Assembly: GCA_017525915.1 (NCBI GenBank)
Contig: JAFXSC010000005.1
Location: 1-46,370, forward strand
Reading direction: 5' to 3'
Source: Ruminococcus sp.
GTDB lineage: Bacteria; Bacillota; Clostridia; Oscillospirales; Ruminococcaceae
Length of the DNA: 46,370 bases
Shown here: positions 27,034 through 43,376 of the stretch, piece by piece
Numbering within the stretch: position 1 is the stretch's first letter
Layout: every line of letters starts with the position of its first letter
The notes under the pieces: generated by a model
The model's database searches: none
What the model was told of the DNA's origin: nothing
What the model saw: only the letters and a program-made list of their open reading frames with translations
Made by a program: the position numbers and the translations under genes

Positions 27034-27435
27034 ATGTACGAATCTAAGGTTAAATATTACTACGGAACAGGCAGAAGAAAGCACTCCGTAGCAAGAGTTA
27101 GAATTTATCCCGGCTCCGGTAATGTTACTATCAACGGCAGAGGTATCGATGATTATTTCGGTCTCGAGACCCTCAAGCTCATCGTTCGTCAGCCCCTCGC
27201 TCTCACTGAGAACCTTGATAAGTTCGACGTTGTCTGCACTGTTGCTGGCGGCGGCGTTACAGGTCAGGCTGGCGCTATCAGACACGGTCTTTCACGCGCT
27301 CTCCTCGAGTTCGATGCAGATCTCCGCTCCACTCTCAAGAAGGCTGGCTTCCTCACAAGAGACCCCAGAATGAAGGAGAGAAAGAAGTACGGTCTCAAGG
27401 CCGCTCGTCGTGCTCCGCAGTTCTCAAAGAGATAA
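27034..27435 (+). CDS. rpsI: 30S ribosomal protein S9
   Basis: The 133-aa 30S protein has a basic C-terminal tail that reaches the P-site tRNA. Motifs: [44 protein letters not shown] and the terminal [15 protein letters not shown] 27034 lies 8 bases after AGGAGG; a GTG at 27025 overlaps that site and is not used. The end of the gene is the att site of the adjacent mobile elements: the repeat begins at codon TCA just before AAG AGA TAA, and copies of these codons plus terminator recur at 38726 and 43305. Confidence 0.98.
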
Positions 27436-27495
27436 TTTTATCCCTATTGGGACTATACGAAAAATCGCCTCGCAGGGCTATCCTGCGAGGTTTTT
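27425..27495 (+). repeat. att1: rpsI 3' end attachment site, left end of element A
   Basis: The repeat starts at CAAAGAGATAA (last codons and stop of rpsI), continues through ATAATTTTATCCC and GGGACTATACGAAAAATCGC, and ends with the terminator hairpin. att3 differs at 3 positions inside about 71 bases, and att2 lacks two bases (AG) of CAAAGAGATAA. Integration therefore preserves the gene end and terminator. The host gene sits to the left; the element's integrase and arm sites sit just right. Confidence 0.9.
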
Positions 27496-27496
27496 C
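27470..27496 (+). terminator. rpsI terminator (within att1)
   Basis: CCTCGCAGG pairs with CCTGCGAGG around GCTAT, followed by TTTTTC. The same terminator is duplicated inside att2 and att3. Confidence 0.92.
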
Positions 27497-27537
27497 TTAT
27501 GTCAAGTGAAGTGGTAAGAATCAGTAAAAATTTGATT

Positions 27538-27610
27538 GTAGCACTCACGTAACACTCACATAGCACTCATTTTTGAAGCCTGTTTTTTGTGAGTGCTACA
27601 TGAGTGCTAC
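27538..27610. promoter_or_regulatory. Arm-type integrase binding sites, element A left end
   Basis: Three direct 11-mers lie head to tail: GTAGCACTCAC (27538), GTAACACTCAC (27549) and ATAGCACTCAT (27560). Two inverted copies follow: GTGAGTGCTAC (27589) and ATGAGTGCTAC (27600). The exact 11-bp pitch puts them on one face of the helix, as expected for arm-binding sites of a tyrosine integrase. Confidence 0.75.
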
Positions 27611-27664
27611 CACATTTCAGAAATGGCTAAAAATAAGGAGGCGTCATCTGACATCTCCTTATTT

Positions 27665-27760
27665 TTATATCTTGTTAATAGCCTCGATTAGCTCTTGTAT
27701 ATCAAGGTGTGTGTAAACGTTCTCGGCTATTGTCTTGCCTGTGTGTCCGAGGACTCGGGC
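27665..27760 (-). pseudogene. Integrase C-terminal fragment
   Basis: The last 31 codons of a tyrosine integrase (ARVLGHTGKTIAENVYTHLD... to stop) differ from residues 323-353 of the intact integrase at 28519-29580 by one residue. Upstream the frame breaks off at 27760. It includes the final catalytic H and Y but no more. A terminator-like AATAAGGAG/CTCCTTATT hairpin lies beyond its stop, and a related sequence follows the intact copy. It is probably the remnant of an earlier copy at the same site. Confidence 0.85.
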
Positions 27761-27849
27761 AAAAATGCACATAATGTTCTACCTTGCACCTGCCTATCGG
27801 TAGGTGCAAGGTTCTGTCAATTAGTCTGGATATGAGCGAAATAGCTGAT

Positions 27850-28230
27850 TCACCACTCAGGTTCTTCGGGTTCCTTTTTGTAATCAGGCGATCTTCCAAG
27901 GTTTTTTACCTTTGTCGGATACGAGAGCTTATAATCTTGTTCAATCGGGCAATAAACATCTGGACGATGTCCTCTGTAGCCCTTTTGATACACTGCAACT
28001 CTTGCATCGAACTGCACGATATCACCTTCGCGGAGATTAGCAGCTTGAAATCCTTTTGTCAGATTGAACCAAAGATGATCGGTGACAATCCTTCCACTGG
28101 AATCCTGCACATCTTTTAGAAGCACTGTTTCTTCAGGCTCTTTGTAGCCGTTTTTTAAGCCGATTCTGATAAAAATGCCACTGAATGTATGTCTGGTTTC
28201 GTTGCCAATCTCTTTCAGTTTTCTTCTCAT
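27850..28230 (-). CDS. Hypothetical OB-fold-like protein
   Basis: The 126-aa basic protein is of a family I do not recognise. The pattern is strand-rich: HTFSGIFIRIGLKNG, ETVLLKDVQDSSG, HLWFNLTKGFQ, LREGDIVQFDARVAVYQKG. The LREGDIVQFDARV segment resembles the barrel-closing strands of OB folds, and the C-terminus is proline- and charge-rich. AGGAG precedes ATG 28230. It lies between an integrase fragment and the intact integrase, so it may have arrived with a second insertion. Nucleic-acid binding is only a guess. Confidence 0.6.
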   Translation of the reverse strand: MRRKLKEIGNETRHTFSGIFIRIGLKNGYKEPEETVLLKDVQDSSGRIVTDHLWFNLTKGFQAANLREGDIVQFDARVAVYQKGYRGHRPDVYCPIEQDYKLSYPTKVKNLGRSPDYKKEPEEPEW

Positions 28231-28342
28231 AAAAAATTCTCCTTTATGTTAATTTCAGGCGATCATGTATACAGCAGTGTAAAAACATCCAAATAATCTG
28301 ATGCTTGATAGCAGATGATTCAAGGTACAAATTTGTCCTGAA

Positions 28343-28501
28343 TCAGGAGCCGTCGCTATAATCTTCCAAGGATCTACCCACTATGATCTCGTAGATCACA
28401 GCGGTGTCCGCATCTTCAAACAAGTCCGGCTCTTCCAACAAAATATCACGGGTCAGCTTATTCGCAACAAGGACTTTATCGACAGACTGAGAAGATGCCA
28501 G
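28343..28501 (-). pseudogene. Possible gene fragment beside the integrase
   Basis: A minus-strand frame of about 52 codons, acidic toward its end (LLEEPDLFEDADTAVIYEII), reads to a stop at 28343 and has no ATG/GTG/TTG start. It looks like the tail of a lost gene. The remainder of 28231-28518 shows nothing else I can support. Confidence 0.3.
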
Positions 28502-28518
28502 ATGACATTGCCTTATAA

Positions 28519-29580
28519 TTATATCTTGTTGATCGCCTCGATCAGCTCCTGAATATCAAGGTGCGTATAGACGTTCTCAGCGATCGTTTTGCCAGTGTGT
28601 CCGAGGATTCGGGCAATCTTGGCGGGGTAAATCTCAGCCTCATGAAGCATTGTGGAACAGGTGTGACGTGTCTCGTGGATGTCACGCTTGCCGAACTCCA
28701 GTGTCTCCATAAGCGGTGCCCAGTATGTATCTTTGTAGGCAGTATAGCCCCTGTCCTCGGAAAAGTCTCTGCCGTCCATTGATACGAGGTACTCACCATC
28801 TGGTTTGCTGTAGAAGTGCTGCCAGTAGGAGAGCGTTTTGTCGGCTATGGGAACTTTACGAATGCCGTTGTCTGTTTTTGCTGCGACCACATCAATATAC
28901 TGCTCATCAAGGTGGCAGTCGCACTTTTTGAGGTTTAGGAACTCGCCAATGCGCATTCCGGAGTAAATCAACATGAGGACGGTCTGAGCAACATCCGTGT
29001 TGTCAAGCGCCCTGATCTTTTCGATTTGATCGGAGGTAAAGGCTGTCCTGTTGCGCTTGTTAGGATTCTTATCCTTGAACTTCTCGACGTTGATCGCCTC
29101 GGAATAGTCTCTGTCTGTGAGCTTTCGAGGAACAGCGTATCCGTAGAGCTGCGAAAACAGCGATTTGATCTTTTTCAGCGTTGGGTAGTTGCAGTCAGCT
29201 GTATCAATGACGTATTGCAGATCGTCAATGCCGATGTCCTTGAACTTCTTGCCGTAAAGGAAGCTGCAACGCTTATATGCTGCTTTGATACCATTTACGT
29301 TTGATTCGCTGATTGTCGTGAACTTCTGCAAGCTCCATTTTTCATAAACTTCGCTGAACGTGGCTTTACCGCCTGTGATGTCATATGGGTTCTCATTGTA
29401 GTTTTCCAAGGCTACAGTTGCTTTATCATACGTTGCATAATATCCGAGAGATTTACGGATTTGCTTACCCTGATCGTCCCATCCGAGCGTGATAATCACC
29501 TGATAGGGATTTCTTCGCTTTCTTCCGGAAACTTTAGTGATTGAACCTGTCCCGTTAGCTCTTTTTAGCGGTTTTGCCAT
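28519..29580 (-). CDS. Tyrosine-type site-specific integrase of element A
   Basis: The 353-aa recombinase is expected to insert element A at rpsI. Order: an N-terminal AP2-like arm-binding region (about 1-60), a SAM-like core-binding domain (about 72-160), and a catalytic domain with R210 (SGMRIGEF), K235, H302/R305 (HETRH), H328 (LGHTG) and Y338. ATG 29580 has AAAGGAGGG upstream; the start overlaps the preceding gene. Its C-terminus faces att1, as usual for integrases next to their att site. Homologous fragments occur at 27665 and 42833. Confidence 0.93.
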   Translation of the reverse strand: MAKPLKRANGTGSITKVSGRKRRNPYQVIITLGWDDQGKQIRKSLGYYATYDKATVALENYNENPYDITGGKATFSEVYEKWSLQKFTTISESNVNGIKAAYKRCSFLYGKKFKDIGIDDLQYVIDTADCNYPTLKKIKSLFSQLYGYAVPRKLTDRDYSEAINVEKFKDKNPNKRNRTAFTSDQIEKIRALDNTDVAQTVLMLIYSGMRIGEFLNLKKCDCHLDEQYIDVVAAKTDNGIRKVPIADKTLSYWQHFYSKPDGEYLVSMDGRDFSEDRGYTAYKDTYWAPLMETLEFGKRDIHETRHTCSTMLHEAEIYPAKIARILGHTGKTIAENVYTHLDIQELIEAINKI

Positions 29581-30526
29581 TTTTGGGTGCCCTCCTTTTG
29601 TATTCACGCACATCATCTTCGTAATGTTTAAGCCATTTAACAAAATCCTCTTCGTTTTTTATAGTCGGATCATAATCTGTTGGCTTATTGCAATTTGAAG
29701 TACCGAATTTTACTATATCCATGTAGTAGTCATAATCTGACATGAATTTCTCTCTTTTTTTATCTCCTTCTTCGTTTTGAAATCGGTTATTTGAATTAAG
29801 TTTTGCTATAATACTTTTTCTGAGTTTGTTTACAGGAGAGTTTCGATACTCTTCAGCGTAGATTTCATTCAGCTTTTGGCAATCTATGCAAAAGTCTCTA
29901 TTTTTAGCTGAAGTTCTGAAAAAGCAGTGGCATTTTTTGCATTGTTTAATTTTATATCTTGTCCTTTCATTGAATAGAAATTCCCATAAATCCAATAAAA
30001 ATAGATTTGTATAACCATATACTTTTATTATTTGATAGGGTTGTTCTTTAATTATTGTATAGTCAACTATTTCACTTGGTTTTATTTCCTTTGATGGTAT
30101 TTCATCGTATTCCATGAATGGTTGCCCACTGAAGTAATAGTGTGCCAAATATCTATATTTTTTGTAAAAATCCAAGAGTTCGTCCTGCGTTTTTATATTC
30201 TTATTTAGAATAAATTCAACCATATTGTCGTAATGGATTTTCCACGTTCTGTCTTTACGCCCATTCATTACAATGTTAGATAATTGCTTAAAATCTTCGT
30301 CACCGATAATTGCGTTGGATATGGCTTTTTCAAAATTCTTTTTTTCGTCCGGCTTTATCGGATTGATCGAGTTTAACCATATTAACGTAATTCTACCGAA
30401 CTCTATTTTGATACCGTCATTGTCAGCATCAGTAATAATCCATTGACAACCTTTCCCATCAATACTCTTATGAATAATTAGCACGTTATCATTGCTCAGA
30501 AAAGGTCTTGTATCTATGGTTGGCAT
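29555..30526 (-). CDS. Zinc-ribbon protein, DUF6076-like
   Basis: The 323-aa AT-rich gene overlaps the integrase start by 26 bases. The centre has a treble-clef/zinc-ribbon motif, CKKCHCFF...CIDC (about 197-219), typical of a small Zn finger inside a longer protein. The N-terminal part is mixed alpha/beta and the C-terminal part is Lys/Tyr-rich and helical. The arrangement resembles DUF6076-type proteins found next to integrases in Clostridia, which have no known function. A role in integration or its control is inferred from the overlap. Confidence 0.65.
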   Translation of the reverse strand: MPTIDTRPFLSNDNVLIIHKSIDGKGCQWIITDADNDGIKIEFGRITLIWLNSINPIKPDEKKNFEKAISNAIIGDEDFKQLSNIVMNGRKDRTWKIHYDNMVEFILNKNIKTQDELLDFYKKYRYLAHYYFSGQPFMEYDEIPSKEIKPSEIVDYTIIKEQPYQIIKVYGYTNLFLLDLWEFLFNERTRYKIKQCKKCHCFFRTSAKNRDFCIDCQKLNEIYAEEYRNSPVNKLRKSIIAKLNSNNRFQNEEGDKKREKFMSDYDYYMDIVKFGTSNCNKPTDYDPTIKNEEDFVKWLKHYEDDVREYKRRAPKNGKTAKKS

Positions 30527-30621
30527 AATATATCAGCTCCTTCAATTTTGAAAATTATTGTGTTCAAAATAAAATGATAAATTTCATTTATTCTTCGACC
30601 TATATATGCTACAATAAATGC

Positions 30622-30649
30622 GAAATGAAATAATAATTATTATCATTTC
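30622..30649. promoter_or_regulatory. Dyad operator candidate between divergent genes
   Basis: GAAATG...AATAATAATTATTAT...CATTTC is a 28-bp near-perfect inverted repeat between the zinc-ribbon gene (leftward) and the small HTH gene (rightward). The likely binding partner is the HTH protein at 30700. The rest of 30527-30699 is AT-rich, with no clear -35/-10 pair. Confidence 0.5.
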
Positions 30650-30699
30650 CTGTTTCGTATTTTACAACTTTATATACAACTTGTCAAGGAGGGAACGCG

Positions 30700-30891
30700 A
30701 TGAATATGAAAATTCGTACATATGCACAACAAATGGATGTAAAATTGTGGGAAATTGCCGAAAAGCTCGGAATGCAGGATTCCAATTTTTCCAAAAAGCT
30801 CCGTCGAGAGCTGAACGCTGACGAGACAGCGCGTATCATGACTGTTATCGATGAGCTGGCACGTGAGAAAAGAGGTGAAGACAATGGTTGA
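30700..30891 (+). CDS. Small helix-turn-helix regulator
   Basis: The 63-aa protein has KLWEIAEKLGMQDSNFSKKLRREL (about 15-38), a compact XRE-like helix-turn-helix of the type that controls element excision genes. CAAGGAGGG lies well placed before ATG 30700. The end overlaps the next start by 8 bases, suggesting coupling. It is shorter than full XRE repressors, but similar proteins are common next to IME/ICE excisionases. Confidence 0.8.
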   Translation: MNMKIRTYAQQMDVKLWEIAEKLGMQDSNFSKKLRRELNADETARIMTVIDELAREKRGEDNG

Positions 30892-31135
30892 TCTGACTAA
30901 TAAGACTGTAGACGAGCTGTATAATGGTGCTAATGTGCCTGTAACCGTTGCAGCAAAGGTAATGCGTAAAGATCCTATGTTTATCCGCATTGGATTACAG
31001 CGTGGTCTCCTGCCCTTCGGCGTGGCAATAAAAAAGGATGAGCATGGTAAGCAATTTGACTACTACATCTCACCTAAGCTCTTCTATGAGTATACAGGCT
31101 TCCTTTGGGATACCGTTGAAGTTATAGACAAGTAA
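30884..31135 (+). CDS. Putative excisionase
   Basis: The 83-aa protein starts MVDLTNKTVDEL and contains VPVTVAAKVMRKDPMFIRIGLQRGLLPFG (about 20-48), a winged-helix/MerR-like turn seen in small excisionases, followed by YYISPKLFYEYTG. Excisionases bend the att DNA and steer the integrase toward excision. ATG 30884 follows GAGGTG and overlaps the previous gene. The identification rests on the motif and on position in the element. Confidence 0.7.
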   Translation: MVDLTNKTVDELYNGANVPVTVAAKVMRKDPMFIRIGLQRGLLPFGVAIKKDEHGKQFDYYISPKLFYEYTGFLWDTVEVIDK

Positions 31136-31212
31136 ATTAATATGAAGGTACATTGTAACAAAGATGTACCTTCTCTGCCTATTAAGGACGTGGCTGTCCT
31201 TATGAGGCGGGG

Positions 31213-31267
31213 TATCTGTATACACCATTCGTTGCGAGACAGTGCAGTCATGTGGTGTATACAGATA
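31213..31267. repeat. 15-bp inverted repeat, candidate replication origin of the element
   Basis: TATCTGTATACACCA (31213-31227) is exactly complementary to TGGTGTATACAGATA (31253-31267), with a 25-base loop. It ends about 40 bases before the Rep start. HUH initiators nick at such hairpins upstream of their gene. A separate smaller hairpin (AAGGTACA/TGTACCTT) lies at 31143-31172. Confidence 0.6.
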
Positions 31268-31308
31268 CTTGCATAGCTCTTTATGCGCTCAGGGATGGAG
31301 TGATGGAT

Positions 31309-32232
31309 ATGAAAAACAGAATCAGTAAACCATACACATGCAAACTGATCGAAGGTCAAACGAGCGGATACGGTGAGGTGCGCCTATATCCGTGTTGTAA
31401 TCGCTCTTGCAGACGGCAAAGGCGTTATCAGAGATCAATACAGGCGTTGCAAAGTGCATACAATAAGCGCTCTGCTCATACGTGTTATGTTGAAGCCGTT
31501 GAAAACTTTGGCAGTCACGATTATTTCCTTACGATCACGTTTTCACCGGATACTGATGATAAAGATCGCCTTGAATTATTGAAAAGAGTCATTCGCTATC
31601 TGCAACGTCGTTGTAATCAGCATGGTACAACATTGAAATACATCTATAACTGGGGACGTGGTGAGATAGATGAGCAGTTGCACTGTCATATGTTTCTCAA
31701 TAATGTTGTAGACTACGGCGATCTGATTGCCTGCTGTAATACATATAAAAATGTAAACATCGACATCCAATATATTGAGTATCCGCATTATAATACAGAA
31801 GAAGATAATATCAGACATATCGTCTACTATGTGTTTTATAAGCATTGGGACAGCCTTGAGGAAGAGGATAAAAACAATCTTGTACAGAAACGGTATTATG
31901 GGTCTCGCTCCTTGAATAAGATGACTGTCACAGAAAAGGATGACGACGAAATTGACCGTGACATTGTGGACAGTCCGACAAAAATCATGGAGGCGATTGT
32001 CAATGCTTCAGATTATGATGAGATTGATGCTATTGTGCATAAAGTGTTCAACGGCTATCGCTTGGAAGGATTCTATTATGACGAAGGGAACAGTCCTATT
32101 TGTGCTGATACCTTCGGCACGCTTTTTGGCAAGTTAAAGCTTGTAAAAATCGGCAGCAAACTTGATAATCCGTATATTTATCGGAACGGTCATAAGATCA
32201 ACCGCTATACGGGCGAGGTTATTGAGGAGTGA
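31309..32232 (+). CDS. HUH rolling-circle replication initiator
   Basis: The 307-aa protein resembles Rep proteins of plasmids and mobile elements with a G2P/HUH nuclease core. FLTITFSP (motif 1, about 73-80), LHCHMFL (HUH motif, H125 and H127) and YYVFYKHW (motif 3, catalytic Y near 173-177, K178) follow in order. Nicking at an origin would give single-stranded copies of the excised element. ATG 31309 has GGAG 8 bases ahead; ATG 31303 is too close to it. The 15-bp inverted repeat directly upstream fits as its origin. Confidence 0.85.
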   Translation: MKNRISKPYTCKLIEGQTSGYGEVRLYPCCNRSCRRQRRYQRSIQALQSAYNKRSAHTCYVEAVENFGSHDYFLTITFSPDTDDKDRLELLKRVIRYLQRRCNQHGTTLKYIYNWGRGEIDEQLHCHMFLNNVVDYGDLIACCNTYKNVNIDIQYIEYPHYNTEEDNIRHIVYYVFYKHWDSLEEEDKNNLVQKRYYGSRSLNKMTVTEKDDDEIDRDIVDSPTKIMEAIVNASDYDEIDAIVHKVFNGYRLEGFYYDEGNSPICADTFGTLFGKLKLVKIGSKLDNPYIYRNGHKINRYTGEVIEE

Positions 32233-32407: not shown

Positions 32408-33868
32408 ATGCCACGATCAATAAGTATGGCAAGAGGTAAAGGAAAAATCAAACATAACAATAGAGTTTTTTTAAGCCCTAACGTTGATAAAAATCGTGTG
32501 AAAGATAACATAATTCTTAAACAAGAAAATTTGTCAGAAGCCTATGAAAAAATCTTCAGGAATGCTCTTGCGGAATATAACAAAAAGCAAAAAAGAGCAG
32601 ACAGAAAAATCGACGATTATTTTGAAAAGCTGTTCGGAAAACATAATGATGATACTATCCTTAAAAATGATAATAAACAACAATCCTTTTATGAGTATGT
32701 CGTAGGTGTAGGTTCAATGCATGATACGGCTCTTGTTGATTCATTTTTAAAGGATGGTACTATTATAAATGCAAATCCGAAAGCAGCAAAAATCGCTGCT
32801 CAATGCCTCAAAGAGTATATGCTCGGAAACAAGGAAATCGGCGTTCAAAGTTTCACTGAAAGGAATCAAAATTTTTATGTTTTTAACGCGGTAATTCACA
32901 TGGACGAAAAGACACCTCACTTGCATTATGATATAATTCCTTTCGCTGACGGATTCAAAAAAGGGATGACAAGGCAGCAGGGATTATCGAAAGCACTGGA
33001 AGTCATGGGATACGGTAATGGCAAGGACGCTATAAAAAACTTTACACAGTCGGAGCGTGGTATTTTTCAAAAGATTTGTAAAGCGCATGGATTTGAAATT
33101 GAGCCTCAGAAAAAAGGCAGAGGATTTACAATTCCAACTAGAATTATGGAGACATATTATCCCATAGTACAGAAGAATGAGCAGCAAATAGTTGAACAAG
33201 AGCGCCAAATAAAAGCAAATATTTCGACTATTTCTGAACAGGAGGTTAAGATCATGGATAATTCAGAAAAAATCGACAAGCAGAATAAAAAGATAGTCGC
33301 AGAGCTCCCACCTCGTCCCGACTATCTAAAACCGCCGAAAGAGCCTGAACTCGGATACATTTTTTCATATGAAGATCAAAAAAAGCGAAAAAAGGAATAC
33401 GCCCAAGAAATGAAAGAATACAAAGCAGAGCTTAGAAAAGTGGAGAAGCACAACAAGGCGGTACCTAACGAACAAGCCGAGTGGGATAATAAATATCTTC
33501 CGATCATAGAGGCAGAAAGGCTAAGTAAAGAAGCGGATGAAAAACTCTCAATTGCCAAAAGTATAGCGAGTAAAAATGCTGAATGTAAAGCAGAGCTCGA
33601 ACGTCAGGAACAGCGAATAAAAGATGAAATCAGCAAAGGTATCAATGAAGGTTTAAGCGCCGACAGACGCGCGATTGAGCTTATGGAACGGCGTACACTT
33701 GCTATACAAACAAGAGCAATCGTTAATAAATCATACCAACAGAAATACAATCGGATTTTCGATCATTTGTATGAAAATGAAAGGAGAGGTCAGCATGACT
33801 ATACACCTCTTGAAGCAGAGCCGAATCGTGATTTTTCCTCAAAGCCGGAACGCAACGAAAGGGAATAA
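32408..33868 (+). CDS. mobV: MobV-family relaxase (Mob/Pre)
   Basis: The 486-aa protein nicks at oriT so the element can be moved by conjugation machinery supplied by another plasmid or ICE. The MOBV signature is AVIHMDEKTPHLHYDIIPF with H164, H171 and H173 as metal ligands; TRQQGLSKALE is the next conserved patch. The C-terminal half (about 250-460) is coiled and Lys/Glu-rich, typical for Mob/Pre. AAAGGAGGTG precedes ATG 32408. No conjugation genes are present, so A is mobilizable rather than self-transmissible. Confidence 0.93.
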   Translation: MPRSISMARGKGKIKHNNRVFLSPNVDKNRVKDNIILKQENLSEAYEKIFRNALAEYNKKQKRADRKIDDYFEKLFGKHNDDTILKNDNKQQSFYEYVVGVGSMHDTALVDSFLKDGTIINANPKAAKIAAQCLKEYMLGNKEIGVQSFTERNQNFYVFNAVIHMDEKTPHLHYDIIPFADGFKKGMTRQQGLSKALEVMGYGNGKDAIKNFTQSERGIFQKICKAHGFEIEPQKKGRGFTIPTRIMETYYPIVQKNEQQIVEQERQIKANISTISEQEVKIMDNSEKIDKQNKKIVAELPPRPDYLKPPKEPELGYIFSYEDQKKRKKEYAQEMKEYKAELRKVEKHNKAVPNEQAEWDNKYLPIIEAERLSKEADEKLSIAKSIASKNAECKAELERQEQRIKDEISKGINEGLSADRRAIELMERRTLAIQTRAIVNKSYQQKYNRIFDHLYENERRGQHDYTPLEAEPNRDFSSKPERNERE

Positions 33869-34319: not shown

Positions 34320-34787
34320 TTGCAAGAGTTTTGCAAGGTCGAGAACGGTGTAAAATACCTATCTATCGAGGGGCTAAAGGTCTTTGATAAAGCGCCTATG
34401 CAAGAGGTTGACAAGGATTTGCAAAGCAATTTGCAAGAGGTTGCAAGCCCTGAAAATGAGCTTTTGAGGGAGACTATCGAGGCTCTTAGGGCGCAGCTCT
34501 CCGTCAAGGACGAACAGCTCTCCGCGAAGGACGAACAGCTCGCGGCAAAGGATAAGCAGCTCGCCGACCTCACGGCAGCGCTGCTGTCGGCACAAGAGCA
34601 GCACAAGGCTCTGACCGACGCTCTTACTGCTGCACAGGCTCTCCACGCAGGGACTATCCAAGAACGTCTGACGGTTGCAGAGCAACCGAGCGCCGATGAG
34701 GTGACCGTTCCAGTTGGTGAAGCTCCACCGGAACAGCCGCCGAAGAAGCGAGGATTTTTCGCAAGAATATTTGGAAAGGATTGGTAA
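34320..34787 (+). CDS. Coiled-coil protein with partial HTH, likely N-terminally truncated
   Basis: The protein has about 155 aa from TTG 34320; the frame is open back to 34272 with no ATG. Residues upstream read TQRIYQLLTKSLQEF...VKYLSIEG, the second half of a DUF536-like helix-turn-helix (normally preceded by a first helix now missing). The middle is a coiled coil of three 7-residue repeats (VKDEQLS, AKDEQLA, AKDKQLA). The C-terminus is KKRGFFARIFGKDW, a basic amphipathic end. It may be a truncated plasmid-type replication or partition helper. The start is uncertain. Confidence 0.55.
   Translation: MQEFCKVENGVKYLSIEGLKVFDKAPMQEVDKDLQSNLQEVASPENELLRETIEALRAQLSVKDEQLSAKDEQLAAKDKQLADLTAALLSAQEQHKALTDALTAAQALHAGTIQERLTVAEQPSADEVTVPVGEAPPEQPPKKRGFFARIFGKDW
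34496..34558 (+). repeat. 21-bp tandem repeat in coiled-coil gene
   Basis: Three 21-base units (start 34496, 34517 and 34538) with the common core GCTCNCCG...AAGGACGAACA, the third more diverged. They encode the 7-residue coil repeats. Copy number could vary. Confidence 0.75.
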
Positions 34788-34788
34788 A

Positions 34789-35943
34789 ATGGCTAATAAT
34801 ACAGTATCACTTAATAAAGCAAGAGGAAGAGCAAAAGGACAAAAAAAAGATGAGTTCTATACTCAATATGAAGATATTCAAGCTGAATTAAATCATTATG
34901 AGAAGCATTTTGAAGGCAAGACTGTACTTTGTAACTGTGACGATCCGTTCGAGTCTAATTTCTGCAAGTTCTTTCTTCGTAATTTTAATTATCTGAAACT
35001 TAAAAGGCTTATATGTACTTCCTACAACTCTTCGCCTGTTGCAGGTACTCAGTTGTCATTCTTTGATATTATCGAAGATGAGATGCACCATGGGCGTGGT
35101 TATGTTCTAGATGTTTCTAAAGTACCTATGGCAAATGGACGTGGTGTCTCAGATGATGATATAGATAAGCTCCTTAGAACTAAGAAGTGGGTTAAGGAAC
35201 TTAATGGGGATGGCGACTTCCGTTCTGAAGAGTGTGTGGAACTCCTTAAACAAGCTGATATTGTTGTAACGAATCCGCCTTTCAGTCTATTTACCCCTTA
35301 TGTTCAGCAACTTTTTAAGTACGAAAAGAAATTTATTATTATGGGAACTGTAAATAACACTCATTATAAGGAGATTTTTCCATTATTTAAAGAAAATAAG
35401 ATGTGGGTCGGCTATTCTTTCAATAAAACTATGATGTTTAATATGCCCGAAAGCTATGATAGTACAATGCGAGATAGTGATGGCAGAAAAATTGGAAAAG
35501 TACCCTCTATTTGTTGGTTTACTAATTTGGAGATAAAGAAACGTCATGAGAAACTCATTTTATATAAAAACTATACTCCTGAAGAATACCCTAAATATGA
35601 TAATTATGATGCTATAGATGTTGGAATATTATCAAATATACCTTGTGATTATTATGGGCTTATGGGTGTCCCTGATACCTTTTTGGATATCTATAATCCT
35701 GAACAGTTTGAAATCGTTGCAAGTTGTCAAACTGGATGCCATCCTGACGAAATGGTTTTGAAAACATATAAAGACTACATAGGATATAAACAGAATGGGA
35801 AAAAAACGGGTAGAACAGGTAGCACCTGTGGGCATAACGCAATTTTGGTAAAAAATGATGGGAAACATGATTATTATAAAAATGCAGAAGGTATCATAGT
35901 GCAATCTGCGTTCTCACGTATTTTTATTAGGCGAAAGGGGTAA
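34789..35943 (+). CDS. EcoRI-type DNA adenine methyltransferase
   Basis: The 384-aa AT-rich gene encodes a methyltransferase of the M.EcoRI family (Pfam EcoRI_methylase). N-terminal DEFYTQYEDIQAELNHY, CNCDDPFESNF (about 48-58) and the catalytic TNPPFSLFTPYV (NPPF 162-165) are the family motifs. It should transfer a methyl group to an adenine, as a modification enzyme. ATG 34789 overlaps the end region of the previous gene, with GGAAAGGA ahead. The partner gene follows 7 bases later. No cognate EcoRI-type nuclease is recognisable, so specificity is unknown. Confidence 0.88.
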   Translation: MANNTVSLNKARGRAKGQKKDEFYTQYEDIQAELNHYEKHFEGKTVLCNCDDPFESNFCKFFLRNFNYLKLKRLICTSYNSSPVAGTQLSFFDIIEDEMHHGRGYVLDVSKVPMANGRGVSDDDIDKLLRTKKWVKELNGDGDFRSEECVELLKQADIVVTNPPFSLFTPYVQQLFKYEKKFIIMGTVNNTHYKEIFPLFKENKMWVGYSFNKTMMFNMPESYDSTMRDSDGRKIGKVPSICWFTNLEIKKRHEKLILYKNYTPEEYPKYDNYDAIDVGILSNIPCDYYGLMGVPDTFLDIYNPEQFEIVASCQTGCHPDEMVLKTYKDYIGYKQNGKKTGRTGSTCGHNAILVKNDGKHDYYKNAEGIIVQSAFSRIFIRRKG

Positions 35944-35950: not shown

Positions 35951-37120
35951 ATGACTATTTCAGAAATTAAGGTTAGAGTAGAAGATATATTTAGGGGGTA
36001 TGAAGACGATGGTGAAGACGGCATATTTGCTTATAATGGTAAATTAACTATTAGACCGCCCTATCAAAGAGAGTTTATTTATAATTTAAAAGAACAAGAA
36101 GCAGTTATTCATACGATTTTAAAGGGATTCCCTCTTAATATAATGTATTGGATACTTACAAAAGGAACTGTAAAAAAGGATAATGAAAACCATATAATGA
36201 TATCTGATGATGCTGAATTTGAAGTGCTTGATGGACAACAGAGAACCCTTTCTGTTATGAAATTCTTATCCCATAAGCTACAGATTCACTGGGATGGCAA
36301 AGCTTATTATAAAGATTCTCTTCCAGATGATTTATATAGCAAATTAATGAATTATGAGTTTATGATTTATATTTGTGAAGGAACAACCTCTGAAAAACTA
36401 GATTGGTTTGAAATAGTAAATGTAGCAGGAGAAGAACTTACAGCTCAAGAATTAAGGAACTCTGTTTATACTGGACCTTGGCTTTCAGATGCCAAACTCC
36501 ATTTTTCAAAAAGTTCATGTGCAGCCAAAGGATTAAGCGAAAAATATATAACTGGAGCTCCTCTAAGGCAAGAATTACTCGAAAAAGCTTTAATAGGAAT
36601 ATGCGAATTAAAGGGATATAAAGAAATTAAAGAATATATGGCAGATCACGTTTCTTGTGAAGATGCAGATGAACTTTGGCAATATTTTCAAAATGTAATT
36701 CATTGGGTGGAAACTATTTTCCCTCTATATTATCCAGATATGAAGGGACGTAATTGGTGTCATCTTTATAATAAGTATCATACTAACTCTTATAATTCTA
36801 ATGTAATGAAAAATGAAGTTAAAAGGTTACATGAAGATGATGAAATACAAGAGTATAAAGGAATATATGAATATTTGCTATCAAAAGACGAAGATCCTTT
36901 TGCGGCTAGATTATTAAATCTAAGAACGTTTTCAGAAAAAGATAAAACTTCGGCATATTCCAAACAAGGTGGTATATGTGCTATATGTAAACGTCCATTT
37001 TCTTATGCAGAAATGGCAGGAGACCATATTAAACCTTGGAGCAAAGGTGGTTTGACTACACCCGAAAATTGTCAAATGCTTTGCAAGGAATGTAATAGTA
37101 AGAAATCTGATATGTATTGA
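35951..37120 (+). CDS. DUF262-HNH endonuclease
   Basis: The 389-aa protein has an N-terminal DUF262 domain (GmrSD/ParB-like): PYQREF (37-42) and LDGQQRTLS (about 93-101). A middle helical part is followed by a C-terminal HNH/McrA-type nuclease with Zn cysteines at 343, 346, 378 and 381, DHIKPWSKGG (H359) and N373. DUF262 proteins can sense or cut phage DNA in type IV restriction systems. Here it is directly downstream of a methyltransferase, so the likely job is restriction of DNA lacking the partner's mark. It is strongly AT-rich like the methyltransferase, suggesting joint transfer. Confidence 0.85.
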   Translation: MTISEIKVRVEDIFRGYEDDGEDGIFAYNGKLTIRPPYQREFIYNLKEQEAVIHTILKGFPLNIMYWILTKGTVKKDNENHIMISDDAEFEVLDGQQRTLSVMKFLSHKLQIHWDGKAYYKDSLPDDLYSKLMNYEFMIYICEGTTSEKLDWFEIVNVAGEELTAQELRNSVYTGPWLSDAKLHFSKSSCAAKGLSEKYITGAPLRQELLEKALIGICELKGYKEIKEYMADHVSCEDADELWQYFQNVIHWVETIFPLYYPDMKGRNWCHLYNKYHTNSYNSNVMKNEVKRLHEDDEIQEYKGIYEYLLSKDEDPFAARLLNLRTFSEKDKTSAYSKQGGICAICKRPFSYAEMAGDHIKPWSKGGLTTPENCQMLCKECNSKKSDMY

Positions 37121-37129
37121 TAACTTCTT

Positions 37130-37205: not shown

Positions 37206-37260
37206 TTGACAATCAGCAGTATCTGTGCTATTATAAATAGTGTAATAGTAACGGTCGTTA
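37206..37260 (+). promoter_or_regulatory. Promoter and small inverted repeat of the resolvase operon
   Basis: TTGACA (37206-37211), a 17-bp spacer and TATTAT (37229-37234). Just downstream TAACG-GT-CGTTA (37249-37260) is a short inverted repeat that could be an operator or recombinase site. Confidence 0.65.
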
Positions 37261-37292
37261 TATTTATACAGTTAATGAAAGGAGTGAAAATG

Positions 37293-37985
37293 ATGAACGT
37301 GATATACGGCTATTGCCGTATCAGCACCAAAAAGCAGAATATCGAACGGCAGGAGCGTAATATCCTTGCAGCATTCCCGACAGCGCGGATAACGAAAGAG
37401 ACCTACACAGGCACAAAGCTCAATCGTCGAGGATTGGATAAGATACTCAGAGAGGTTAGGAGCGGCGACACAATAGTCTTTGATAGCGTGAGCCGTATGA
37501 GCCGTAATGCTACCGAAGGTATCGAGATGTATATGCAGCTCTATGACAAGGGGATAGAGCTTGTGTTCCTCAAAGAGCCGCACATAAACACGGCAACTTA
37601 TAAGCAAGCTCTGAGCAACAGCGTTGAGCTCGTCGGAAATGAGATCGCGGATATCTACATTGAAGCGACAAACAAGGTGCTGCGGCTACTTGCCACAAAG
37701 CAGATAGAGCTCGCGTTCGGTCAGGCTCAGAAAGAGGTCGATGACCTGCATCAGAGGACGGCTGAAGGAATTGAAACAGCTCGACGTAAGGGAAAGCGTA
37801 TAGGAACTCCGCAGGGTAGTGTCCTCAATGTCAAGAAGAAAGCCCCTGCAATTGCTGTTATCCGTAAAAATTCCGTAAGATTCGGCGGCACTCTCAACGA
37901 TACTCAATGTGCCGCTGCCGCCAAGATAAGTAGGAAGACCTTTTACAAATATCTTTCAGAAGTCGAAAAGGAGAACGAAAAATGA
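37293..37985 (+). CDS. Serine recombinase (resolvase/invertase type)
   Basis: The 230-aa recombinase starts YGYCRISTKKQNIERQ, with the catalytic Ser in YCRIST. GDTIVFDSVSRMSRNATEG is the second conserved block, AEGIETARRKGKRIG the linker, and a C-terminal HTH (DTQCAAAAKISRKTFYKYL) binds DNA. Size fits resolvases/invertases, not the large integrase type. It may resolve element dimers or invert a segment. ATG 37293 is 8 bases after AAAGGAG; ATG 37290 is possible. It overlaps the next gene by 4 bases. Confidence 0.9.
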   Translation: MNVIYGYCRISTKKQNIERQERNILAAFPTARITKETYTGTKLNRRGLDKILREVRSGDTIVFDSVSRMSRNATEGIEMYMQLYDKGIELVFLKEPHINTATYKQALSNSVELVGNEIADIYIEATNKVLRLLATKQIELAFGQAQKEVDDLHQRTAEGIETARRKGKRIGTPQGSVLNVKKKAPAIAVIRKNSVRFGGTLNDTQCAAAAKISRKTFYKYLSEVEKENEK

Positions 37986-38576: not shown

Positions 38577-38595
38577 CTATTATAGTTACGGCGTC

Positions 38596-38725
38596 AAAAG
38601 TGATGTGTATAAATGTGCTAAGACGTGTTGCACATCACTCTTATAGCACTCATCTATTATAGATAACATCGAAAAAACGCCATTTTTAGGGGCTTCTCAC
38701 TTATGCAAACGATAAGAAATCTTAT
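38596..38725. repeat. Right-end repeat of element A
   Basis: About 130 bases nearly match 43175-43304: GTGATGTG..., TTATAGCACTCATCTATTATA, GATAACATCGAAAAAACGCC, ATTTTTAGGGGCTTCTCACT. It contains the arm-site word GCACTCAT (38646) and a weaker TCACTC 11 bases before. It lies directly left of att2, as an attR-side (P') arm. Confidence 0.85.
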
Positions 38726-38795
38726 CAAAGATAATTTTATCCCAACTGGGACTATACGAAAAATCGCCTCGCAGGGCTATCCTGCGAGGCTTTTT
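38726..38795 (+). repeat. att2: second copy of the rpsI attachment site
   Basis: CAAAG-ATAATTTTATCCCAACT, GGGACTATACG, then the terminator CCTCGCAGG/CCTGCGAGG plus a T run. It lacks two bases (AG) present in att1 and att3, so the rpsI stop context is altered. It marks the right end of A and the left boundary of B. Confidence 0.88.
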
Positions 38796-38821
38796 GTTTT
38801 TCTGAGGCAAGGGGTTACGCA

Positions 38822-39343: not shown

Positions 39344-39358
39344 TATTCAGTCCTCCTC

Positions 39359-40165: not shown

Positions 40166-40208
40166 AAAGATTACCTCCTTATAAAAATAATAAATGATGT
40201 TTTGAATT

Positions 40209-40236
40209 GAGCAACCACATTGCGAAACCGTTGCTC
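40209..40236 (-). promoter_or_regulatory. Leader hairpin of the EVE-like operon
   Basis: GAGCAAC pairs with GTTGCTC in the untranslated leader between promoter and start codon. Possible control element; nothing more is visible. Confidence 0.4.
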
Positions 40237-40247
40237 TTCCTGTTTAC

Positions 40248-40276
40248 AGTATACACACAATTTGGAGATTTGTCAA
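40248..40276 (-). promoter_or_regulatory. Promoter of the EVE-like operon
   Basis: Minus strand: TTGACA (40271-40276), a 17-bp spacer and TATACT (40248-40253). It is divergent from the promoter at 40555. The intervening 40277-40554 is AT-rich and shows no gene. Confidence 0.85.
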
Positions 40277-40554
40277 GAGAAATCCGATTTTTGAGAAAAT
40301 CTTCGAGAAAATCGGCACATTGCATAAATTGTGAGCTGAAAATATGTGTTTTTTCACCAAGTATGCGACGAAGAAGATGTAGTTGCGCAATGATTGATGA
40401 AACCAAAAAACAACTCCCGCAGCTATATATGGGTATATGAAAAATATATAGAAATCTCGAAAATTCGTGACGTTCATCAGGACATCATACGTTTTTGCAT
40501 CGACATATGCAAAATGATCTGCCTACATCTCCGTTTTTTTTCGTGATCAGACAT

Positions 40555-40584
40555 TTGACTGCGCTTTGCGCAATAGTGTATAAT
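40555..40584 (+). promoter_or_regulatory. Promoter of the paralog-pair operon
   Basis: TTGACT (40555-40560), an 18-bp spacer and TATAAT (40579-40584), about 70 bases before ATG 40656. Confidence 0.8.
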
Positions 40585-40655
40585 TACATCACATCAAGGA
40601 GCTCCTGAGTTTTTACCGCGGCTGACGAGCCGTTAAAACAGAAAGGAAAATAATT

Positions 40656-41579
40656 ATGAATAACAATTATGACTTCGGCAGGGCATTTTCTGATTTCGAT
40701 GAGGACTTCGATCCTTTTGCTATCCCTTATGAAAGAGCGGTCAATTGCTTTGACGTCAACGACGAGTTTCTGGATATGAATACCTTCGTGCTGGCGGCAG
40801 TCTCCGGCATCTGCCTTGAAAACAGCGGCGAGGCCGGGAATGATTACTGCCTCTTCTCTCAGCTCAGCCTTCTGCTGCACCCTGACAGGCCTGCTGCATA
40901 TTACGCTCTTCACTATGCAAGAATGTTCGTAAACAGGCTTCCGGGCAAGGACGACCTGGATCCCGATATTTGTGAAACGGTTTATCAGGATATAGAAGCG
41001 GCTCTCCAAGAAATTCTGGCTAAGGTCTGCGGCTCGGAGAAGGAGCTTGAAAAGCTGTTTGACCATCGTGACTACGACGAGATCCTGTACAATATTGACG
41101 AGTTCCTGGGCGAGGAATGCGTAACGGATTATCTGAACGACCCGTTTTTTGCCTTGGCAGTCGCACTTTATACCTCTCTCAGTCTGAACGCCAAGCGCAT
41201 TGATGCGGTCTCGTTAATGTATGAGCATCTGCCGTACACGGATTTCGCTCCGCAAAACTGCTTCGACGTGATCGGCGACGCTATACTTCTGGTGGATAAG
41301 ATCGGCGTTCGCTCCTTACAGAGCAAGTATTCTTTTACGGTACTGCTCTGGTACATATTCAAAGCTCTCAATGAATACTACGAGAAAATGCTTGAGAACG
41401 AGTGGGAGTTTGAAAATATCAGCGATGACGAGACCGATTTTGAGGACGATGAGGAAACGGACGATGACGACGCCGGGTTCGATGAGGTATTCGATTTCAG
41501 CGGCGATGATGAGGAAGAGGAGGACGCTTTGGCATTCGAGGACGTTTTCAGTCTTAGCGATGAGGAGGAAACAGCATGA
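40656..41579 (+). CDS. Unrecognised helical protein with acidic tail (paralog 1)
   Basis: The 307-aa protein is mainly helical. The C-terminal ~60 residues are extremely acidic (Asp/Glu runs). Residues ~165-245 (ALAVALYTSLSLNAKRIDAV ... VVLLVDK-type ... VLLWYIFKALNEYYEKML) align with the next gene around VDxxxxxxxxK...VxLWxIFxxL. No known domain comes to mind. GAAAGGA precedes ATG 40656. The overlap ATGA with the next gene couples their translation. The acidic tail could mimic DNA or bind a basic partner, but that is speculation. Confidence 0.75.
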   Translation: MNNNYDFGRAFSDFDEDFDPFAIPYERAVNCFDVNDEFLDMNTFVLAAVSGICLENSGEAGNDYCLFSQLSLLLHPDRPAAYYALHYARMFVNRLPGKDDLDPDICETVYQDIEAALQEILAKVCGSEKELEKLFDHRDYDEILYNIDEFLGEECVTDYLNDPFFALAVALYTSLSLNAKRIDAVSLMYEHLPYTDFAPQNCFDVIGDAILLVDKIGVRSLQSKYSFTVLLWYIFKALNEYYEKMLENEWEFENISDDETDFEDDEETDDDDAGFDEVFDFSGDDEEEEDALAFEDVFSLSDEEETA

Positions 41580-42430
41580 GCGAGGACGCCTTTTTTCATC
41601 AGCTTGACTTCAACATAGTTCCCGATACAGCGCCGGTATTCGATAAAGCAGCGCTTGAACGGATGCTCCGGTCCGCTGAAAGCTTCTCCAAAGATTTCGA
41701 TGACGCGGGCAGGTTCTTTGATACCGTCCTTGAGACCGCGGTCTATCTCTGCCTTTTCCCCATGAAGAAGCGCGACAGCCTGTTTATGTGCAAGCTCAGG
41801 CACAGCGAGGAGAAGGATTTCTGGAACGCCGCCCATAACGCTAAAGGATTTGTTCTCAGCGAGTTGACGCCTTACGCCCACCTCAAAGGCAGCATTCTCG
41901 ATGACCTTGACGCGGTGCTGGGAAGCCTTATCTCCGCGTTCACTGATCAATTCTATTCCTATAATGAAAATATGCTCGCAAACCCTGTTCTGCTGGCTGC
42001 AAAGGCGATGGGATTTCCGGACTGCAAGCTCCTCCGCCGTGCCCGTCTGACTGCACAGTCGGTCTTCACGCATTGGGACGACCGCGGCGAGGCGATATAT
42101 GCGGATAATGTATTCGCGCTGCTGGTATGTCTGTATGTGAAATACCGCTGCAAGCTGGGCAGGGAAAGCGCCGTCAACTGGCTCTACAGGCTGTCGTATG
42201 AGCTTTTCGGCGCTAAGAACGCTAAGTTCCTCGATATAGCGTACAAGGCTGTGGCACTGGTGGACGGAGTTTACAGCGAGCCGGCAGCAAAGGCGTACCG
42301 TCCGGCAGTCGTGCTATGGCATATCTTTCGTGTGCTGCGACGTTTGAGCGAAAGCTTCTCCTGCGACGAGTGGATGAAATGCGGCTGCGAAAAGGAATGC
42401 GAGGTCTGCGATTGCATGATTACACAGTAG
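41576..42430 (+). CDS. Unrecognised helical protein (paralog 2)
   Basis: The 284-aa helical protein shares its C-terminal half with the upstream gene: LLVCLYVKYRCKLGRES, IAYKAVALVDGVYSEPAAK, VVLWHIFRVLRRLSESF. Its own end is cysteine-rich (MKCGCEKECEVCDCM, about 266-280), a possible metal site not present in paralog 1, which instead has an acidic tail. It starts at an ATGA overlap and is the last gene before a terminator hairpin. Function is unknown. The pairing of two diverged copies with contrasting tails suggests they form a hetero-complex. Confidence 0.75.
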   Translation: MSEDAFFHQLDFNIVPDTAPVFDKAALERMLRSAESFSKDFDDAGRFFDTVLETAVYLCLFPMKKRDSLFMCKLRHSEEKDFWNAAHNAKGFVLSELTPYAHLKGSILDDLDAVLGSLISAFTDQFYSYNENMLANPVLLAAKAMGFPDCKLLRRARLTAQSVFTHWDDRGEAIYADNVFALLVCLYVKYRCKLGRESAVNWLYRLSYELFGAKNAKFLDIAYKAVALVDGVYSEPAAKAYRPAVVLWHIFRVLRRLSESFSCDEWMKCGCEKECEVCDCMITQ

Positions 42431-42461
42431 CGCTACGAGGGGTTCAACAGTTATAAAAAAT

Positions 42462-42526
42462 ACCGGAAGCTTCACAGCTTCCGGTTTTGTTTTTCTTGAA
42501 TTACGGTTATACCATTGCGAAAAATT
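42462..42526 (+). repeat. Dispersed hairpin repeat, copy 3
   Basis: ACCGGAAGCT pairs with AGCTTCCGGT (42462-42485), then TTTTGTTTTTC, acting as the terminator of the paralog pair. TTATACCATTGCGAAAAATT (42507-42526) matches the right arm of the copy at 13816. A host-type repeat within element B hints that B formed in, or carries DNA from, a close relative. Confidence 0.7.
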
Positions 42527-42529
42527 GGT

Positions 42530-42821
42530 TCACTTATTCTTTTTGAGAGTTTTTCTCACGACGGCACGAAGTCTTTCGCAGGTATCCTGCGGAAACTCGG
42601 TTATGAACCTTATCGCCTGCGAATGCGCCTCGTCCTGTGACAGTCTGAGGAACCTGTGGAAGAAGGTATAGACCTCGCTGAAAGTGGAGAATATCTCCGC
42701 GACGGCAGCTTTTCCCTCGGGGGGTGAGCACGACGCTGTTTCCGAAGTCCTCATAGACATAGCCGCAGTTTGCGAGACATCTCAGCATTTTGCTGACGCT
42801 TGGCCTTGAAACGCCGAGGTG
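42530..42821 (-). pseudogene. DtxR/MntR-like regulator pseudogene
   Basis: Joining two frames gives HLGVSRPSVSKMLRCLANCG, then VLTP-EGKAAVAEIFSTFSEVY and on to TFFHRFLRLSQDEAHSQAIR. That is a metalloregulator: winged helix with SVSKML recognition helix, then TPEGKA and the dimerisation helices. One extra base in a run of six G (42719-42724) shifts the frame, and the first ~35 residues are missing at an abrupt join (about 42821) to an integrase fragment. It is clearly broken. Confidence 0.75.
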
Positions 42822-42832
42822 TCAGGATATAA

Positions 42833-42921
42833 AGCTGCGAAAACAGCGATTTGATCTTCTTCAGTGTCGGATAGTTGCAATCGGATGTATCAATGACGTA
42901 TTGTAGGTCGTCAATGCCGAT
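42833..42921 (-). pseudogene. Integrase internal fragment
   Basis: Reads IGIDDLQYVIDTSDCNYPTL and LKKIKSLFSQLY, matching residues about 117-146 of the element A integrase (28519-29580) with one difference. It covers only part of the core-binding domain and no catalytic residue. It corresponds to DNA 29147-29235. It marks a former integrase in element B, now mostly deleted. Confidence 0.9.
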
Positions 42922-42927
42922 AATAAT

Positions 42928-43182
42928 GTGATTGCCTTGTATCATCTGCTCGCTGAGGCAGACGAAGGCGGACTGCAAGCTGTCGTCATGTACAATCAGC
43001 CACCAACCGCAAAAGAACGCCAAGACACTCAAGGTCATCTTTTTGATTTTCTGGGCCAGGAACAGATTTATGAGGTTATGCCCGAAAATACACGAAAAGT
43101 CGCTATTCTACTTGAAGGCGATGACTTCTTTCTCACGCCGCAGAGCTTTCGTGAAGTTTTCGACCAAAACAGAGAAAAGTGA
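42928..43182 (+). CDS. Hypothetical ORF or gene remnant
   Basis: The frame from GTG 42928 gives 84 codons (ALYHLLAEADEGGLQAVVMYNQ ... VAILLEGDDFFLTPQSFREVF). It has no convincing ribosome binding site, and its start abuts the integrase fragment, so it is probably the 3' part of a lost gene. The internally acidic and hydrophobic pattern suggests real coding origin. No family is recognised. The right-end repeat begins within its last codons. Confidence 0.4.
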   Translation: MIALYHLLAEADEGGLQAVVMYNQPPTAKERQDTQGHLFDFLGQEQIYEVMPENTRKVAILLEGDDFFLTPQSFREVFDQNREK

Positions 43183-43304
43183 TGTGCATTGACGTCCTAA
43201 GATGTGTTGCACACCACTCTTATAGCACTCATCTATTATAGATAACATCGAAAAAACGCCATTTTTAGGGGCTTCTCACTTATGCAAGCGATAAGAAAAG
43301 TTAC
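43175..43304. repeat. Right-end repeat of element B
   Basis: Near-copy of 38596-38725, with GCACTCAT at 43225 and CCACTCTT 11 bases before it. It lies directly left of att3, as the matching right end of B. Confidence 0.85.
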
Positions 43305-43376
43305 CAAAGAGATAATTTTATCCCAACTGGGACTATACGAAAAATCGCCTCGCAGGGCTATCCTGCGAGGTTTTTT
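43305..43376 (+). repeat. att3: third copy of the rpsI attachment site
   Basis: CAAAGAGATAATTTTATCCC, then AACTGGGACTATACG and the terminator hairpin. It keeps the AAAGAGATAA that encodes Lys-Arg-stop. It is both the right end of B and the left end of C. Confidence 0.9.

Follow-up and report, generated by a model that had tools for sequence, protein, structure and literature searches.

In the portions of the literature that were available, the closest described systems to the locus considered here, namely rpsI (30S ribosomal protein S9) of a Ruminococcus sp. and the DNA that follows it in a stretch of 46,370 nucleotides (the window; assembly GCA_017525915.1, contig JAFXSC010000005.1, positions 1 to 46,370), belong mostly to streptococci. 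IMESag-rpsI of Streptococcus agalactiae, an integrative and mobilizable element (IME) of 9.1–9.5 kb, resides at rpsI and encodes a PF00589 integrase, a rolling-circle Rep, and MobV, with no type IV secretion system (T4SS) (PMC5090054). Streptococcal IMEs are found in tandem accretion at rpsI, rpmG, and rplL, with three integrase families for rpsI (PMC5357655), and accretions of IMEs with cis-mobilizable elements (CIMEs) are known at the same genes and at fda (PMC5357655, PMC5704250, PMC7563491). A scenario of IME-then-CIME accretion has been put forward (PMC5704250). One survey counts 37 composites, 16 at rpsI and 4 consisting of three elements, reports microCIMEs of 130–220 bp, and, in the available part of its S. 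salivarius table, gives CIME–IME–target gene as the commonest composite (PMC7563491). Outside streptococci, a putative integrative and conjugative element (ICE) lies in rpsI of Roseburia hominis A2-183 (FirmiData; PMC12904643, PMC9092696).

A preliminary description of this DNA had called a stack of elements at a ribosomal protein gene notable; the literature in fact already contains IME and CIME accretions at rpsI (PMC5357655, PMC5704250, PMC7563491). At the rpsI 3′ end of this Ruminococcus, integrative elements have very probably accreted in tandem. It is well supported that the array comprises an apparently complete IME (A), at least two neighbours (B and C) that lack a working integrase of the same family, and probably the remnant of a fourth element (D).

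Copies of the rpsI 3′ end and the extent of the array

The target gene and its repeated 3′ end are placed as follows.

27025..27435, plus strand: rpsI, target gene; open reading frame with an in-frame ATG at 27034, relatives 78–96% identical by tblastn
27424..27495, plus strand: att1, with the final rpsI codons, stop, and terminator; rpsI/A junction (repeat and terminator searches)
38721..38794, plus strand: att2, A/B junction, core CAAAGATAA (repeat searches)
43304..43375, plus strand: att3, B/C junction (repeat searches)

The three repeat copies that had been reported are real and lie at 27430–27504, 38729–38803, and 43310–43384. Within their shared 66 bp, att1 and att2 agree at 63 positions, att1 and att3 at 64, and att2 and att3 at 65; the spacing is 11,299 bp from att1 to att2 and 4,581 bp from att2 to att3. 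An 80-bp query against the whole assembly (3,091,626 bases in 67 contigs; cut-off E <= 0.001) matches exactly three places, with E from 5.5e-36 to 3e-24, all at this locus. Because these are the only matches in the assembly, the repeat is neither a chance resemblance nor a common dispersed terminator, the finding that the preliminary description had named as contrary to its proposal. A fourth att-like site, on contig C34, has only a short core in common with the others and falls below the E threshold of this search.

Each of the three copies joins the rpsI stop region to a strong 11-pair hairpin with a T tail, and a listing of plus-strand terminator-like sites across 27.3–44.0 kb opens with these three hairpins. 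The core CAAAGAGATAA is indeed common to att1 and att3, and that of att2 is CAAAGATAA. The accompanying idea that every copy restores Lys-Arg-stop does not hold: rpsI is rebuilt by att1 only, whereas at att2 and att3 the core is preceded by DNA of the elements rather than by rpsI codons. As first described, A and B end on the right in near-copies, with 92% identity across the 136 bp preceding att. The G+C content is 0.513 for the chromosome, 0.397 for A, 0.460 for B, and 0.385 for C.

Arrays of short sites, resembling integrase arm sites, follow two of the att copies, and single sites mark the right ends of A and B (motif scan).

27538..27610, no strand assigned: arm-site array, A left end; direct sites GTAGCACTCA at 27538, GTAACACTCA at 27549, and ATAGCACTCA at 27560, inverted sites at 27590 and 27601
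38643..38652, plus strand: arm-type site, A right end
43222..43231, plus strand: arm-type site, B right end
43417..43489, no strand assigned: arm-site array, C left end; direct sites at 43417, 43428, and 43439, inverted sites at 43469 and 43480

In the A array the sites are 10 bp long; three are direct, spaced 11 bp apart, and the other two are inverted. The arrays behind att1 and att3 have an identical three-plus-two geometry with one letter changed (GTAGCACCC behind att3, GTAGCACTC behind att1). Nine of the ten TAGCACYCR matches in the window are at element ends. Since an A-like array stands behind att3, and the same array also behind rpsI in a congener, G024, the sequence places the start of a third element, C, at att3. 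Positions 43299–43562 moreover have 83% identity to the end of rpsI and the DNA following it in G024, and the array and this match together rule out att3 as the outer boundary, where the preliminary description had ended its stack of three. Thus att1 to att3 bracket two elements, A and B, and the third lies farther out.

43598..44815, minus strand: AIPR-family protein, C cargo (PF10592, 2.5e-31)
44920..45156, plus strand: helix-turn-helix regulator of C (PF01381, 2.1e-18)
45107..46048, plus strand: tyrosine integrase of another type, in C; its N-terminal part is apparently missing, judged by length (PF00589, 1.5e-22)
46243..46370, plus strand: contig end, 128 bp identical to C34:1728-1855 (assembly comparison)

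It is likely that C continues on C34. There, arm-type sites at 7516 and 7527 are followed at 7576 by the att-like sequence TCAAAGAGATAA (att4), and the G+C content is 0.382 for 1856–7575 and 0.532 for 7911–15000. If C runs to att4, it measures about 8.8 kb. The DNA after att4 (C34:7579–7910) resembles DNA directly behind rpsI in four relatives: G012 (80% over 332 bp), G008 (82% over 257 bp), G009 (89% over 139 bp), and L046 (85% over 343 bp). The last comes from a metagenome-assembled genome (MAG) titled Lachnospiraceae, with an rpsI product only 72% identical and an integrase that is 73% identical to that of A and lies 812 bp from rpsI. By these matches, the roughly 330 bp after att4 probably belong to a fourth element, D, now decayed, as its left end.

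Integrases and att sites behind rpsI in relatives

That elements were inserted site-specifically at the rpsI 3′ end by a tyrosine integrase, more than once at the one site, was the central proposal of the preliminary description, and it is supported. Five integrases (alignment A1) were used to scan genome contigs, and of 141 confirmed loci the best 80 were evaluated. Among these, 60 have rpsI downstream of the integrase and convergent with it (56 of 76 without the four query-source contigs), with a gap of at most 350 bp in 39 of the 60. By identity of the integrase, convergence is seen in 4 of 5 loci at 70% or more, 43 of 45 at 42–51%, 10 of 14 at 38–41%, and 3 of 16 at 35–37%. At 42% or more the count is thus 47 of 50, or 43 of 46 without the query-source contigs. 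Among the 20 loci that lack a convergent rpsI, the contig ends within 1 kb in four, and three of the seven integrases checked have att-like cores (L063, L069, and L102). Two of the three exceptions at 42% or more have an att-like copy close by, 1.1 kb from the integrase in L063 and 0.19 kb in L069; the third, L048, has none near its integrase. In L069 an rpsI-like 3′ end (QFSKR-stop) is found 187 bp beyond the integrase and tblastn finds no rpsI gene in that stretch; this end is perhaps a long captured att. A second att copy of 69 bp (93%) lies 11.7 kb behind rpsI in L062, the best real match of a blast search for far att copies in the 80 loci, a weak search in that many of the sequence stretches stop before a possible far att; its hit at +61 is merely the tail of the query. 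The loci that tie this family to the rpsI end come from Clostridia in many cases and from Bacilli in at least one (Gracilibacillus, L110).

The preliminary description had suggested comparing the DNA behind rpsI among Ruminococcus relatives, and both single-copy and occupied sites are present. An rpsI match of some length was found in 26 of the 35 congeners searched, and 25 loci from 24 genomes could be read; G020, whose contig stops about 60 bp past rpsI, and G023, whose contig stops inside rpsI, were left out. The loci were scanned with a profile of tyrosine integrases, namely those of A and C and the nine that these loci themselves contain, serine integrases being outside this search. In nine of the 25 such an integrase stands behind rpsI. 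Two types, with a mutual identity of only about 22%, are represented: the A type in G024, G001, G002, and G003, and the other type in G007, G011, G013, G027, and another contig of G002. A second att that is accompanied by no integrase match was seen in three further loci, at 3.8 kb in G008, about 3.1 kb in G022, and 165 bp in G019. Four others show an element-like left end only (G009, G012, G026, and G005); that of G026 is 74% identical over 270 bp to L079, with 2.5 kb examined, and that of G005 is 77% identical over 128 bp to G007. The remaining nine have no integrase and no second att within the 2.5 to 13.6 kb examined. G035, with one att, and G019, with two, have the next two genes in common. 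Lone att copies also occur in G006 and G028, with no rpsI in the stretches examined. In G002 and G022 two rpsI matches lie on different contigs, and these assemblies may be mixed.

The locus most like that of the window is in G024 (G024:C53; L004, L005), where att-like sites stand at 0, 17.7, 24.1, and 24.3 kb, the 17.7-kb site retaining 11 of 12 core bases. They are accompanied by two integrases, one of each type, and the last two sites enclose a 153-bp unit that is microCIME-like. A unit of the same kind is seen in G019 (G019:C8; L009), where the second rpsI 3′ end follows 165 bp past the first with a terminator between. G024 is the sole locus of the 25 with three or more sites, as counted by a strict core pattern that may miss divergent copies. 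The gene beyond its stack is presumably corA. A corA-like gene was tried and rejected as the right flank in the genome of the window: a 68% match lies on C50, away from the contig end, and no att was seen by eye in the 1 kb read.

A duplication of the rpsI terminator region by homologous recombination, free of any integrase, would also yield repeated copies behind rpsI. Terminator duplications occur, and all the copies here form strong hairpins that end in a T tail. This origin is barely credible all the same, given the convergence of family integrases on rpsI in 60 of the 80 best loci and the arm arrays behind att1 and att3. The case of L046 speaks against it too, with an rpsI product only 72% identical, yet 85% of 343 bp after the stop in common with C34.

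Contents of elements A and B

Element A (27496–38728) is apparently a complete IME carrying a type II restriction-modification pair, as judged from its genes and ends.

27636..27762, minus strand: duplicate of an integrase 3′ end (31 codons), 97% identical in amino acids and 84% in DNA to that of A itself
28519..29643, minus strand: tyrosine integrase of 374 aa, facing rpsI (PF00589, 6e-16)
29555..30526, minus strand: protein of 323 aa that matches no family; related proteins are encoded next to integrases in L044, L046, and L005/L045 (one contig)
30851..31135, plus strand, opposite to the integrase: small protein of 94 aa (phrog_6058, a PHROG whose function is not known)
31252..32232, plus strand: rolling-circle-type replication initiator (phrog_3584, 2.8e-16; REP_ORF2-G2P, 26.2 bits, just below the cut-off of 27.8)
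32408..33868, plus strand: MobV relaxase with HNNR and HMDEKTPHLH motifs (PF01076, 2.6e-8)
34714..35943, plus strand: EcoRI-type adenine methyltransferase, cargo (PF13651, 1.3e-129; PADLOC MTase_II)
35951..37120, plus strand: restriction endonuclease, GmrSD_N plus HNH, cargo (Pfam; PADLOC REase_II, 1.5e-112)
37206..37985, plus strand: serine recombinase, or resolvase (PF00239, 3.7e-22)

Of the features that define an IME, A has a recombinase of its own, a relaxase, and flanking att repeats at a specific site. The integrase keeps R231, K256, H323, R326, H349, and Y359 (numbered from the listed start), the six catalytic residues of tyrosine recombinases. The relaxase scores 34.4 bits against PF01076 (cut-off 25.5) and 26.6 bits against the NCBIfam MobV model, below its cut-off of 100. 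MOBV1 motifs I (HxxR) and III (HxDExxPHUH) are present; in place of motif II (NYD/EL) the protein reads DNIIL, and because the motif II tyrosine is missing the relaxase is classed as MobV-like rather than MOBV1. The element likewise falls outside Class_IME_10 (Rep_trans/MobT plus MobV), its Rep matching phrog_3584 and weakly REP_ORF2-G2P, not PF02486. As for an origin of transfer (oriT), there are short hairpins only upstream of mobV, and inspection by eye picked out no nick sequence. The 94-aa protein, which has relatives in 55 of 115 loci compared (a few contigs counted twice), may be an Xis-like, or excisionase-like, factor. Pfam finds no VirB4 or other T4SS family in 12 of the larger open reading frames of A, a scan to which the overlapping 142-aa frame at 38148–38576 and smaller frames did not belong. 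A is predicted to excise and to transfer.

Could A instead be a satellite prophage or phage remnant with no link to conjugation? In the portion available, a study of the integrases of group B streptococcal prophages mentions rpsI (PMC7487436), and the closest integrase in the phage collection is 50% identical to that of A. Such an origin is very improbable: A has a MobV relaxase and a Rep, the 12 of its frames compared with Pfam give no match to capsid, terminase, tail, or lysis families, and a single-sequence scan of viral_contigs gave nine pattern matches to the integrase, none of them confirmed. MobV matches in viral_contigs (24 loci) are short or weak.

Further details of A may be recorded. 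The methyltransferase and endonuclease genes (34714–37120), carried as cargo by the IME, make up what looks like a complete type II restriction-modification pair. Two copies of the 3′ end of the integrase gene occur, at 27636–27762 and 28490–28616, 854 bp apart; because the 31 residues are 97% identical in protein and only 84% in DNA, the second copy is probably the remnant of another, related integrase. Duplication of the integrase 3′ end as a recurrent mechanism of cargo gain was considered and dropped, with none among 19 other loci in which the integrase lies more than 500 bp from rpsI. A resolvase 46% identical to that of A is encoded in G000:C34:1-1727 (L130).

Element B (38804–43309) fits a decayed, CIME-like element whose left end appears incomplete.

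38822-39343, minus strand: unassigned open reading frame, no Pfam match above cut-off
39359-40165, minus strand: unassigned open reading frame, no Pfam match above cut-off
40656-41579, plus strand: unassigned open reading frame, paralogue of the next, no Pfam match above cut-off
41576-42430, plus strand: unassigned open reading frame, paralogue of the preceding, no Pfam match above cut-off
42830..42921, minus strand: fragment of an A-type integrase gene, 92 bp, 89% identical to 29144–29235

It has att on both sides, no intact integrase, and no relaxase match among the five frames scanned, as in a CIME; by motif scan the right end is kept and the left arm array is absent. Pfam, PADLOC, and PHROG give no family for its four larger frames, nor does NCBIfam for the two compared with it. 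The adjacent paralogues (40656–42430), 33% identical over 91 aa, are among those with no match in the first three collections. That B represents a family present elsewhere was considered and rejected: the frame at 39359–40165 occurs in 1 of 60 genomes, its own.

Several observations weigh against tandem accretion as an account of the locus. Alignment A1 was built from integrases beside rpsI and is biased towards such relatives, and 13 of the 16 loci at 35–37% identity lack a convergent rpsI, two of them owing to a contig end. The 11-bp arm geometry stands behind rpsI in 9 of 62 sequences, and the GTAGCAC letters are common only to A, C, and L045 (the G024 locus); the arrays therefore mark this subfamily only and are no general feature of the family. 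The C45–C34 join, by which C is extended, is a 128-bp overlap inside C34, and C34:1–1727 offers a second path into it, which may reflect a strain mixture, a repeat, or another state of the element. No relatives of the B frames, the integrase fragment apart, were seen in 115 loci, so that the origin of B is unseen. The terminator tail at the left of B resembles that of C and its right end that of A, and the att2 core is two bases short. Because its left end has no arm-site array, B may be a product of deletion or recombination rather than a clean second insertion.

An explicit version would derive A and B from one larger element, or from two copies, by right-end duplication and deletion, with att2 as an internal duplicate. 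The 92% identity of the two right ends over 136 bp, the missing left array of B, and its 92-bp fragment of A-type integrase all favour this course, which we nevertheless consider unlikely. The translated frames of B, the fragment apart, match none of those in A, the right ends, at 8% divergence, do not look recently duplicated, and islands with two att sites and no integrase match exist in G008, G019, and G022. It is also very improbable that the stack is an assembly chimera of misjoined strains or repeats. The assembly is in 67 contigs, both ends of the contig studied lie in repeats, and C34 has its second upstream path; on the other side, G024 presents a comparable stack in a separate assembly, and the G+C content of C34 shifts from element-like to chromosome-like across att4.

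Growth of the array and comparison with described systems

Under tandem accretion, an integrase of the A family, which is dedicated to this site, would recombine the attP of a circular element with the core CAAAGAGATAA TTTTATCCC, located in the final codons and stop of rpsI. A stop and terminator would arrive with the attP, so that rpsI is rebuilt and kept expressed with every insertion; the displaced 3′ end would become the far att copy, a new target for the next element. That expression is kept and a new target left at each junction is what the att copies suggest, given a terminator carried by the element and recombination in the core. The crossover would here fall within TAATTTTATCCC, because the two bases missing from att2 lie to its left and the first difference of att1 from att2 and att3 lies to its right. 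The order of arrival would be D, C, B, A, the newest adjoining rpsI. An innermost newest element is suggested by the intact element beside rpsI and the decayed ones outward, stacks being too few to test the rule.

A more far-reaching possibility, which we advance tentatively, is that the locus is a polarised archive at least four elements deep. Newcomers carrying their own rpsI stop and terminator would insert beside rpsI, age and decay would grow with distance from rpsI (A being complete, B and C lacking a working integrase of the family, D reduced to a 330-bp stub), and A might carry B, or B and C, in cis as larger circles. If the order of age is true, the history of acquisition, one element after another, can be read from the locus. 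One integrase family tied to one 3′ gene end would also provide a simple marker for such islands in MAGs. Defence-type cargo, represented by the restriction-modification pair and the AIPR protein, collects here behind an essential gene.

Within the literature covered, which included few subscription papers, no Ruminococcus rpsI stack was found; the case from Clostridia is the Roseburia ICE. That element, compared here by its description, shares the rpsI target; it differs in being an ICE that contains IME_Rho_tet, with no stack. IMESag-rpsI may be set beside A. Both reside at rpsI with a PF00589 integrase, a rolling-circle Rep, and MobV, and no T4SS was seen in A, which at 11.2 kb is the longer. 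The Rep_trans protein (PF02486), Cro/CI regulator, RepA_N gene, and RelBE toxin-antitoxin of IMESag-rpsI, as listed in the available portion of its account, were not found in A. Element A in turn has another type of Rep, a restriction-modification pair, a MobV that lacks the motif II tyrosine, and a host of another bacterial class. The 153-bp unit of G024 and the 165-bp unit of G019 are comparable to the streptococcal microCIMEs. The streptococcal accretions, as far as the available accounts go, have the same architecture as the present locus, which has at least three elements and a probable fourth remnant in Ruminococcus. A structure described in streptococci is thereby extended to this genus: the type of structure and the target site were already known, the Ruminococcus host is new, and the stack is deep.

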